Shown here: one piece after another, positions 43,927-63,184 of the stretch
How the letters are laid out: each line of letters begins with the position of its first letter
Numbering within the stretch: the first letter of the stretch is position 1
NCBI RefSeq assembly: GCF_020405205.1
Contig: NZ_CP084469.1
Location: 2,046,001-2,110,000, forward strand
Origin: Natrinema salinisoli
GTDB taxonomy: Archaea; Halobacteriota; Halobacteria; Halobacteriales; Natrialbaceae
Reading direction: 5' to 3'
Length of the DNA: 64,000 nucleotides
The notes under the pieces: model-generated
What the model was told of the DNA's origin: nothing
The model's input: the letters and a program-made list of their open reading frames with translations, nothing else
The model's database searches: none
Position numbers and translations under genes: made by a program

Positions 43927-44008
43927 ACACGAAAGATGGTCTACAGTGGGGTATGTCTGTGGGCTACCTGTGGAAGCACGTGCGGAGTGGAGCGTCGCCG
44001 TGAGCCGG

Positions 44009-48121: not shown

Positions 48122-48235
48122 CCGTCGTCGCGTCGGCATGATCTCGAGAGTACTACAGCCGTCCGATGGAGGTGACGGTCGAGAGAAGGGTCGAAGCGAA
48201 GACGACCGTCCTACTGCTACTGGCTGCTAAGAGAA

Positions 48236-48592
48236 CCACACCCTCCCCAGCCGATTTCTGCTCACGGGCGCGCAGCGTCCGTTCGCACGGTTCGCGGACC
48301 CTGCGGTTCCGCGCTACCGCTCGTTCGCTGCGCTCACTCACTCACTCATCCACAGGAAGACGCTTCGCGTCTTCCACGCCTGAAAAATCGGAGATTTTTC
48401 GCATCAAGCGAAACCGGAGGTTTCGCGGACCTCGCGAAGTCTGGCGGGACGGAGTCCCGCTGACCTCGCGGGAGCTTCGCTCAGTCACGAGACGGCTGCG
48501 CCGTCTCGAACGACTTCGTTCACGAAGGCCTCGCGCGGGTTCGTGTCGCGGTTCGCCGTCGGCGAACCGCGGTACAACGCGCGCCACCGCAC
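48236..48592. repeat. modular hairpin-array element, copy 1
   Basis: About 357 bp, made almost entirely of consecutive perfect inverted repeats with 3-4 base loops. Left end ACCACACCCTCCCCAGCCG and right end CGCGCGCCACCG are shared with the copy at 61270-61632. Visible hairpins include GGAAGACGC-TTC-GCGTCTTCC (48355-48375), GAAAAATC-GGA-GATTTTTC, GCGAAACC-GGA-GGTTTCGC, CGGGAC-GGA-GTCCCG, GAGACGGC-TGC-GCCGTCTC, GAACG-ACTT-CGTTC and CGGTTCGCC-GTC-GGCGAACCG. No open frame here is protein-like. Confidence 0.8.
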
Positions 48593-48622
48593 GTGGATCG
48601 CTATTTCGAGGACGGTCCGTGC

Positions 48623-58796: not shown

Positions 58797-59319
58797 GGCG
58801 ATCGCGCCTCGCGGCCGTGGTTGGCGTCGACGCTACTCGTATCGGGCGATTCGGCTGTCGTGCGGGACGTTTATATCCCGGTAGAATGTACGGAATCATG
58901 CTTCCGAAACCTCGATGGGTTTGGAAGCCGCGTCTCGGGTGCTGCTACACCCGGGGCATTTGTACGCTGCCCCCGTTCTGGAGACGCAGCCTCCGATCTA
59001 ATCGTCACCGTGTTGTTACTTATACCTATTGTTTTCGGTGATGGATTTATCGACGTGGCGCGAGCGGGATCCAATTCGGATCTGCATCCCGAGGCGAGCG
59101 GTAGCGGTCGCAAAGAGGGAGAACCGTCTCGAGATGCTGGATCTAAAGTAGTTAGGAAAGGGATCAGTTGGACTTGTCATCGGGCCAGATGCCCACGAAA
59201 TACCGACTCACTAAATGTGCAAACTAAACGCGGATTGATTCTCCCAGTTAATCAAAACACAGTGAGTTGGTGAAAATGTCAGGGACATAAGAGCCGTTGT
59301 CTCCTACGCTTCAGTAGAG
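58797..59319. other. intergenic region with a possible structured RNA
   Basis: About 520 bases without a convincing protein gene. The part 58900-58987 can fold into a compact branched structure described separately. The rest (58990-59319) is more AT-rich and shows no clear gene. Confidence 0.5.
58900..58987 (+). ncRNA. candidate structured RNA of unknown type
   Basis: A hairpin GCTTCC-G-AAACC / GGTTT-GGAAGC (58900-58928) precedes a three-way junction: outer stem GCGTCTC (58930-58936) with GAGACGC (58981-58987), enclosing hairpins GGGTG/CACCC (58937-58952) and GGGGCA/TGCCCC (58953-58973). A TTTATAT box at 58870-58876 is about 25-30 bases upstream, the right distance for a promoter. Structure was judged by eye only. 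Confidence 0.35.
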
Positions 59320-61085: not shown

Positions 61086-61824
61086 TTTTCACCTTTTGCG
61101 GCTGTCAGACCTGTGCTGAGTAGTTGGTCTGTACGTACCGATGACCAACTGGACTCGAGGACGAGATTCATGGGTACAGCACCCACAGGAAGTGCGCCGG
61201 TGAATAGAACGAGTGAACGGGCGGAGGGACCACGGCGATGAGTGTTCTGCTCAGACTGGCAACACGGAATCACCACGCCCTCCCCAGCCGATTTCTACTC
61301 ACGGACGCGAAGCGTCCGTTCGTATGGTTCGCGGAATCGCAGGTTCCGCGCTAACGCTCGTTTCACTCGTTCATCCACTGTCAGAGCACGCTCTGACAAG
61401 CTGCTCAAAAATCCCGATTTTTGGCATCAAGCGAAACCTCCGGTTTCGCGGACCTCGCGAAGTCTGGCGGGACGGCGTTGCCGTCTCGAACGACTTCGTT
61501 CACTGCGTCTTCGCGCGGCGTTGCCGCGCGAACGGTCCGAGGGACCGCTGGTCCCTCGCTATTCACGAAGACCACGCGCAATTTTGTCTCGCGGTTCGGC
61601 AACGGCGAACCGCGCCACAGCGCGCGCCACCGTACGGCGACTTGGCCGATACGGCAACCCTCGTACAGACCGCTGATTCGCTGTCTCGAGGAGCAAGTTT
61701 CTCAATACGGCATTCGCAGCAGGTCCGTATGCGAACGGAAACTATCACACACTCGCTCGACGAGGCCACTAACTAGTTAGTGAGATAACAAGAGTAATGA
61801 AGAGGTGGGTATCATTTCGAACCG
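61086..61824. other. long intergenic region with hairpin-array element
   Basis: About 740 bases. The left part (61086-61265) and right part (61635-61824) hold nothing that can be identified; the centre is the second copy of the hairpin-array element (61270-61632). Confidence 0.5.
61270..61632. repeat. modular hairpin-array element, copy 2
   Basis: About 363 bp, collinear with the copy at 48236-48592: left end ACCACGCCCTCCCCAGCCG, right end CGCGCGCCACCG. Hairpins include GGACGC-GAA-GCGTCC, CGCGGAA...TTCCGCG, TGTCAGAG-CACG-CTCTGACA, CAAAAATC-CC-GATTTTTG, GCGAAACC-TCC-GGTTTCGC, GACGGC-GTT-GCCGTC, GAACG-ACTT-CGTTC, GCGCGGC-GTT-GCCGCGC and CGGTTCG-GCAACGG-CGAACCG. Some stems have another sequence than in copy 1 at the same place. 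Confidence 0.8.
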
Positions 61825-62870: not shown

Positions 62871-62951
62871 GCCAGGATGGCCGAACGGTAAGGCGCACGC
62901 CTGGAAAGCGTGTTCCCTTTGGGATTCAGGGTTCAAATCCCTGTCCTGGCG
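62871..62951 (+). tRNA. tRNA-Ser (GGA)
   Basis: Acceptor GCCAGGA pairs with TCCTGGC, anticodon stem CACGC/GCGTG with loop CTGGAAA (anticodon GGA), variable arm TCCC-TTT-GGGA, T-arm CAGGGTTCAAATCCCTG. The discriminator base is G and CCA is not encoded. A long variable arm is normal for Ser tRNA. The gene is followed by tRNA-tail module B. Confidence 0.96.
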
Positions 62952-63104
62952 TTTTCGTGATTTTACTTGCGACGAGCGACGCGTAGCGGCGCGAGTAATC
63001 CAAAATCACGAAACGACACAGACAGGATGTGAACACGCGAGTCGCATGCGGCCGAACGGAGTGAGGCCGACCGTCTCGCATCTGTTCAAATCCCTGTTCT
63101 GGCG
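62952..63104 (+). repeat. tRNA-tail module B after tRNA-Ser
   Basis: Starts with a perfect 12-base inverted repeat, TTTCGTGATTTT (62953-62964) and AAAATCACGAAA (63002-63013). Then come an inverted T-arm copy, CAGGATGTGAACA (63023-63035), and a direct copy of the tRNA-Ser 3' end, GTTCAAATCCCTGTTCTGGCG (63084-63104), with 20 of 21 bases matching 62931-62951. Between them GCGAG...CTCGC and CGGCC...GGCCG form nested stems. Confidence 0.7.
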
Positions 63105-63184
63105 TATACCGTCACTGTAAGTCAGTGAACGCATTCGCCACAATTGCGCGGCGAATGCGTGTAACCGTTACAGTTGACGGTATA
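63105..63184. mobile_element. 80-bp MITE-like element, TATACCGTCACTGTAA family
   Basis: Ends TATACCGTCACTGTAA (63105-63120) and TTACAGTTGACGGTATA (63168-63184) are inverted repeats with one extra base in the right arm. Inside, ACGCATTCGCC (63129-63139) and GGCGAATGCGT (63150-63160) form an 11-bp perfect stem. It begins at the exact last base of the tRNA-tail module B and shares its inner sequence with the element at 8461-8540. Confidence 0.7.

Follow-up and report, generated by a model that had tools for sequence, protein, structure and literature searches.

Two hairpin arrays of Natrinema salinisoli belong to a dispersed, structured repeat family of Halobacteria

Two hairpin arrays with different stems

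The 64,000-nt stretch of Natrinema salinisoli DNA analysed here (the window) contains two hairpin arrays that carry different stems at the same place. How can folding persist while the sequence that folds is replaced? The initial annotation proposed an exchange of stems between two copies, and offered two explanations: either pairing is under selection, or some mechanism replaces entire hairpins. The arrays span positions 48211-48594 (copy 1) and 61248-61632 (copy 2), have the same orientation, and are 72% identical across an alignment of 385 nt. All four stems can be read directly from the sequence where they had been annotated. In copy 1, GGAAGACGC (48355-48363) pairs with GCGTCTTCC (48367-48375), and GAAAAATC (48382-48389) with GATTTTTC (48393-48400). 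At the matching place in copy 2, TGTCAGAG (61379-61386) pairs with CTCTGACA (61391-61398), and CAAAAATC (61406-61413) with GATTTTTG (61416-61423). Compared with dinucleotide shuffles, the two arrays have folding z-scores of -6.6 and -7.6 on the plus strand and of -4.4 and -5.0 on the minus strand; none of 100 shuffles folded as well on either strand. Both arrays are module-loaded members of a larger repeat family.

A dispersed repeat family of Halobacteria

Both annotated copies are present, but they are more than a pair: in the source genome, 4.7 Mb in size, approximately 49 sequences match the element at the DNA level, in part or in full. The family, which is non-coding and dispersed in Halobacteria, occurs in 27 of the 29 genomes of the genus. 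Of 391 Halobacteria genomes, 97 contain an exact 16-mer of its conserved end, and these represent 32 of 86 genera, with 0 to ~95 matches per genome (maximum, 95); these copy counts are search matches and not a full annotation. The reversed control pattern gave no match in the 391 genomes of the class. A covariance model built on 39 diverse compact copies, for which no more than 13 candidates were scored in each genome, was positive in 155 of the 292 genomes of the class, covering 47 of 77 genera. No sampled genome from elsewhere in the phylum contains the 16-mer, and as far as sampled the family is restricted to Halobacteria. Its distribution is patchy, both between genera and within them. In 2.9 million viral contigs, a check for viral carriage gave just five 16-mer matches, which could be due to chance. 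Perfect hairpins (arms of at least 8 nt, 3-nt loop) have a density of 2.95 per kb in family elements and 0.093 per kb in the surrounding DNA.

Most elements (111 of 120) are intergenic. Their flanking genes are diverse, and no neighbour gene recurs among the 120. The right end (RE) side faces the 3' end of a gene in 56 cases and the 5' end in 46; thus, there is no strong bias, and a role as a 3'-UTR or terminator element was rejected on these numbers. Dispersed copies occur in both orientations. Head-to-head pairs of opposite orientation are frequent at single intergenic sites (for example, C3:287482-287832 in genome G012, C1:3408148-3408421 in genome G000, and loci L084 and L086). No tandem repeats were found, and no Rfam family matched the element; between positions 44000 and 64000, the only Rfam match at E <= 1 was a tRNA. 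Literature searches for these sequences or for such haloarchaeal motifs found nothing, and this double-hairpin repeat family is apparently undescribed so far.

Two other features of the window deserve mention. A conserved, hairpin-rich intergenic unit at 58866-59035, directly behind a TATA-like GGACGTTTATATC, has no Rfam match, a paralogue at ~3000770-3000930 of contig C1 in G000 (L009), and an orthologue in G019 (L049); it resembles an independent small RNA gene that is present twice in the source genome. Approximately 130 nt downstream of the tRNA gene at 62871-62951 lies a 22-nt sequence nearly identical to the 3' end of that gene (63084-63105), which resembles the remnant of an integration site.

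The conserved core and the folded strand

The core of the element is approximately 100 nt long and probably folds as the minus strand of the window, in the order 5'-UGGCGCGCGCUG-P1-GCGCGAGGGAUGAG-P2-AAUCGGYUGGGGAGGGYGUGG-3'. P1 is a stem whose pairing is perfect or nearly so, and whose sequence is almost free. P2 is a short helix in which Watson-Crick steps of 2 bp alternate with tandem G.A pairs (GAU-GA-GC-GA-...-GA-GC-GA-AUC). There are no terminal inverted repeats at the element ends, and palindromes lie near them. In 39 sequences, 95.3% of the cells in core stems are paired, and pairing drops to 12-43% in controls with slid partners. Thirteen core pairs have changes on both sides, and the number of double-changed cells in the 39 sequences is 125, compared with 39 after shuffling. 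The class-wide core thus shows strong compensatory change.

Copy 2 contains all parts of this architecture, on the minus strand throughout. A flank (TGCTCAGACTGGCAACACGGAATCA, 61248-61272) lies outside the class-wide core and is genus-specific, being kept in Natrinema elements and different in other genera. The left end (LE) core follows (CCACGCCCTCCCCAGCCGATT, 61273-61293); its minus strand is the invariant 3' block, nearly unchanged throughout the class and matched by the covariance model. Module M1 (60 nt, 61294-61353) consists of the hairpins CGGACGC-GAA-GCGTCCG and GCGGAATC/GGTTCCGC, and was delimited by the M1 alignment and by its presence or absence at the same site in ~11 orthologous loci. 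The P2 region with its tandem-GA helix (61354-61375) was assigned from the consensus fold and covariation. Between P2 and P1 lie extra hairpins (61376-61449), identified by direct reading and from the M2 series described below: TGTCAGAG/CTCTGACA, which is the M2 stem, CAAAAATC/GATTTTTG, and GCGAAACC-TCC-GGTTTCGC. Further hairpins, read directly and supported by the fold, fill 61450-61577, among them GACGGC-GTT-GCCGTC (61471-61485), CGCGCGGC-GTT-GCCGCGCG (61512-61530), and CGAGGGACC-GCT-GGTCCCTCG (61538-61558). The last segment (61578-61629) contains the terminal stem P1, formed by CGCGGTTCG (61590-61598) and CGAACCGCG (61606-61614), and the RE core CAGCGCGCGCCA (61618-61629). The covariance model matches the minus strand at 61491-61629 with an E value of 9e-5.

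Copy 1 is built likewise on the minus strand, with the genus-specific flank at 48211-48235, the LE core CCACACCCTCCCCAGCCGATT at 48236-48256 (covariance model evidence), and M1 at 48257-48316 (M1 alignment and covariance model evidence). The first hairpin of M2, GGAAGACGC-TTC-GCGTCTTCC (48350-48379; direct reading and M2 series), is followed by an extra hairpin array nested in M2 (48380-48525; direct reading and fold), whose members include GAAAAATC-GGA-GATTTTTC, GCGAAACC-GGA-GGTTTCGC, GGGACGGAGTCCC, GAGACGGC-TGC-GCCGTCTC, and others. The terminal stem P1 and the RE core occupy 48534-48586, within the covariance model match at 48496-48586 (minus strand, E value 1.4e-6).

Single mismatches in the stems indicate which strand folds. 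On the window strand, A.C outnumbers G.T by 30 to 2 (p = 2e-7, the most extreme of six search settings); the other settings gave ratios from 10 to 2 up to 34 to 7 (p = 0.04 to 3e-5), and the surrounding DNA has 185 A.C and 175 G.T mismatches. Terminal stems, measured another way, have 37 A.C and 12 G.T (p = 5e-4), and helix 1 varies between G-C and G-U on the minus strand. Because A.C mismatches on the window strand are G.U or G.T wobbles on the opposite strand, it is probably the minus strand that folds, either as RNA or as single-stranded DNA. Counter to this assignment, the folding z-scores are weaker for the minus strand, and the internal modules show little A.C/G.T bias.

Invariant single-stranded blocks in a class-wide core, strong covariation, and strand-specific wobble of the G.U type are what a structured RNA with a cellular role, acting in trans or in cis, might display; the copies would then be an RNA gene family and the modules expansion segments. 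Such an RNA fits poorly with a copy number that varies patchily from 0 to ~95 between and within genera, and with elements that have no tie to particular genes, do not consistently run in the direction of the upstream gene (56 versus 46), and have no conserved promoter-side flank that we could see. We consider a cellular RNA unlikely.

Stems change in matched pairs

Folding is kept while sequence turns over, in that stems change in matched pairs and whole two-hairpin modules are gained or lost. For the first of these processes, the initial annotation had named a lack of covariation beyond phylogeny as its refutation, and the outcome was in its favour. Covariation was scored by a G-test of our own, with APC and a null based on a tree, not by R-scape, and by this test five stem pairs of M1 are significant. 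When all column pairs in an alignment of 40 M1 modules are ranked, stem pairs take the first five places, with E values from 4e-5 to 7e-3; one of the M1 pairs occurs as C-G (14 modules), G-C (13), and A-T (10). In M2, which contains the stem quoted in the initial annotation, the three top-ranked column pairs are also stem pairs, and their scores are reached by a fraction of 0.003, 0.052, and 0.077 of the null alignments, so that only the first is clearly beyond the null. Selection on pairing is thus supported by the M1 covariation, the top M2 pairs, and the compensatory change in the class-wide core.

The M2 stems form a series (AGGAAGA, CGGAAGA, CGGCAGA, TGGCAGA, CGTCAGA, TGTCAGA) that connects both versions seen in the window. 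Given these intermediates, GGAAGACGC and TGTCAGAG mostly reflect covariation in one homologous hairpin: the stems do differ, as annotated, but not by a swap of unrelated stems, and the change within the homologous module was mostly stepwise.

The divergence between orthologs is 9.6% of positions in stems and 22% in loops. Over short times, orthologous stem changes comprise 38 that break a pair, five that are compensated, and five that give G.T; only hairpins with a perfect stem in one of the species entered this count. That many of these changes are unpaired counts against our overall explanation, and is due in part to this choice of hairpins.

Loops and template switching

Triloops of the form GNA or TNC close 59% of stems with arms of at least 8 nt, compared with 14% of control hairpins. 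Fifty-six pairs of hairpins have the same arms and reverse-complement loops; reversed or complemented controls have none. At orthologous loci, the loops of two hairpins (GAT/ATC and TTC/GAA) have flipped with the stems unchanged, all three bases being replaced by the exact reverse complement. These flips are the footprint expected of intra-hairpin template switching, a known mechanism (PMC8794818), and one could suppose that stems and loops are kept mainly by mutation, one arm being copied onto the other and the loops inverted, with no part played by selection. The loop evidence is suggestive only, since the loops are limited to few types: the GNA/TNC restriction makes reverse-complement matches likelier by chance. 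Moreover, of the eight orthologous triloops that have changed, just three are exact flips, one of which amounts to a single substitution, and the copying of arms predicts neither the A.C/G.T strand bias nor the invariant single-stranded blocks. The hairpins generated by template switching in PMC8794818 resemble ours in their multi-base compensatory changes and loop inversions, but leave module insertion, strand bias, and invariant single-stranded blocks unexplained. Template switching as the main force is quite unlikely; pairing may be kept by selection or in part by arm-onto-arm copying.

Modules gained and lost at orthologous sites

We compared 120 ortholog pairs in 57 clusters, with module profiles assigned by regular expression. 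Profiles differ in 27 of the 57 clusters, and entire double-hairpin blocks that one species carries are missing from another, with the flanks aligned on both sides. The second alternative, replacement of whole hairpins, is also supported: gain or loss of entire modules is seen directly between orthologous loci. M1 (59-61 nt) lies between CCGATT and CGCTC and is present or absent at this exact site in ~11 loci; M2 (49-53 nt) lies between CTCATC and CCTCGC; M3 (~62 nt) sits in loops. Clean insertions, with both flanks aligned, were observed for all three modules. Their architecture resembles that of the core: one stem, a short linker, and one tandem-GA hairpin. The ends of M1, M2, and M3 are not inverted repeats, and their junctions show exact presence or absence with no visible duplication.

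One locus exists in three states: no module in G025, M1 and M2 in G015, and M1, M2, and a second M1 nested in M2 in G012 (L382, L022, L024). Ectopic M1 copies follow ACTACG, CGCCCG, CCCCCG, TCACCG, and CCGTCG, mostly after CG, and mostly have TTC next. In three clusters (20, 17, and 5), M1 is present in only one of three to five species, which favours gain; the pattern in cluster 15 is compatible with loss too. Module change at a given locus may be either insertion or precise loss. At the orthologous site of copy 1 (L089 versus L081), G026 has ~110 bp of unrelated extra hairpins within the element that G027 lacks, and therefore further module types exist.

The modules could also be explained by gene conversion between dispersed copies, anchored on the conserved LE core and P2, which would spread module-bearing versions without any mobility of the modules. 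In favour of this explanation, the module junctions adjoin conserved sequence (CCGATT, CTCATC, and CCTCGC), and haloarchaea are polyploid and recombine readily. In several pairs, however, locus-specific sequence reaches the module on both sides (L293/L326, L349/L287), and M1 is also found at unrelated positions inside M2, M1, and M3 hairpins. Gene conversion is an improbable account of the modules.

A possible mobile element

Our overall explanation is that this structured Halobacteria repeat family is most likely a non-autonomous mobile element in the style of PATE, SMR, or REP sequences, a reading that we hold with moderate confidence. A single strand of the element, in folded form, would be mobilised in trans; we infer both this mobility and its chemistry. 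The modules may be smaller relatives of the element that insert into hairpins, the 50- to 62-nt double hairpins M1, M2, and M3 precisely entering or leaving junctions and loops that are fixed, both in the core and in each other. Such traffic would account for the nested arrays in the window, and the stems would look exchanged because homologous module stems coevolve pair by pair while whole modules come and go.

Several observations bear on the source of mobility. No transposase or other partner that could be the mobilising enzyme was found. An autonomous copy, with a gene inside or beside the element, was rejected: none was found, and flanking genes are diverse. No clean empty site with a target-site duplication was found; at L279, the single candidate, flanking sequence is missing as well, and the site may have arisen by deletion. 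We count it against recent transposition of the core that most elements are at sites common to several species. Movement of REP-like elements by an IS200-type HUH transposase, as in the RAYT/PATE model, would agree with the near-terminal hairpins, the lack of a terminal inverted repeat and of an obvious duplication, and the head-to-head pairs. However, the IS200-type TnpA (PF01797) is absent from the high-copy genomes G019, G012, G023, and G028 and present in G009, which has no copy. The presence of this Y1 transposase does not track copy number, and IS200 TnpA was rejected as the driver. The LE core was found at none of 30 TnpB and 30 TnpA loci tested, where covariance model matches were no better than E = 0.017, and a relic of TnpB/omega-RNA was likewise rejected. 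We regard the IS200-type model as very unlikely. A more elaborate form of the mobile-element explanation would be a self-nesting archaeal system, with a minus-strand single-strand element, miniature double-hairpin derivatives precisely entering hairpins of their own kind, a putative new enzyme, and possibly an RNA intermediate; we think this doubtful.

A curious pair of arrays has thus become a widespread structured repeat family of Halobacteria. It is a natural system in which orthologous loci reveal both compensatory stem change and the turnover of whole hairpins, and it lets an old question be tested directly: what shares selection and template-switch mutation have in the maintenance of stems. 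It also poses a puzzle of mobility, as 60-nt hairpin modules come and go exactly, without a known enzyme.

Comparison with known systems

Each of the nearest described systems has part of the element's anatomy. Bacterial REP, REPIN, and BIME sequences share with the element many dispersed, intergenic palindromic units and pairs of opposite orientation. The element differs in its longer core, conserved throughout the class, and in having no linked RAYT gene; the IS200-type (Y1) transposase associated with REP/RAYT systems is missing from its high-copy genomes.

Closer parallels exist in Haloquadratum. The palindrome-associated transposable elements (PATEs) of Haloquadratum walsbyi, as presented in the relevant parts of PMC3119063, are haloarchaeal, transposase-free, and heterogeneous between copies, with near-terminal palindromes and no terminal inverted repeats, all of which they share with our element; no target duplication is noted for them there. 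The PATE palindromes are related to the ends of IS605, whereas our core is absent from the TnpA/TnpB loci tested; nested modules, and a core conserved throughout the class whose fold covaries, are features of our element not seen for PATEs in those parts of the source. The SMR-A repeats of Haloquadratum, whose mobilisation is given as unknown in the same parts of PMC3119063, are short repeats that enter other repeats without target duplication, as the modules appear to do. SMR-A has terminal inverted repeats, which M1, M2, and M3 lack, and the modules are double hairpins sharing the architecture of their host element.

By description, the modules, each made of two adjacent hairpins and present or absent at orthologous sites, can also be likened to fungal mitochondrial double-hairpin elements. 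These fungal elements are reportedly short two-hairpin units, with a presence/absence polymorphism that suggests mobility. They are mitochondrial and belong to an unrelated genome, whereas the modules described here are archaeal, chromosomal, and nested in a larger conserved structured element. For the fungal elements, the relevant part of PMC5910586 cites Paquin et al. 2000. The element most resembles the PATE and SMR repeats of Haloquadratum and the double-hairpin elements of fungi.
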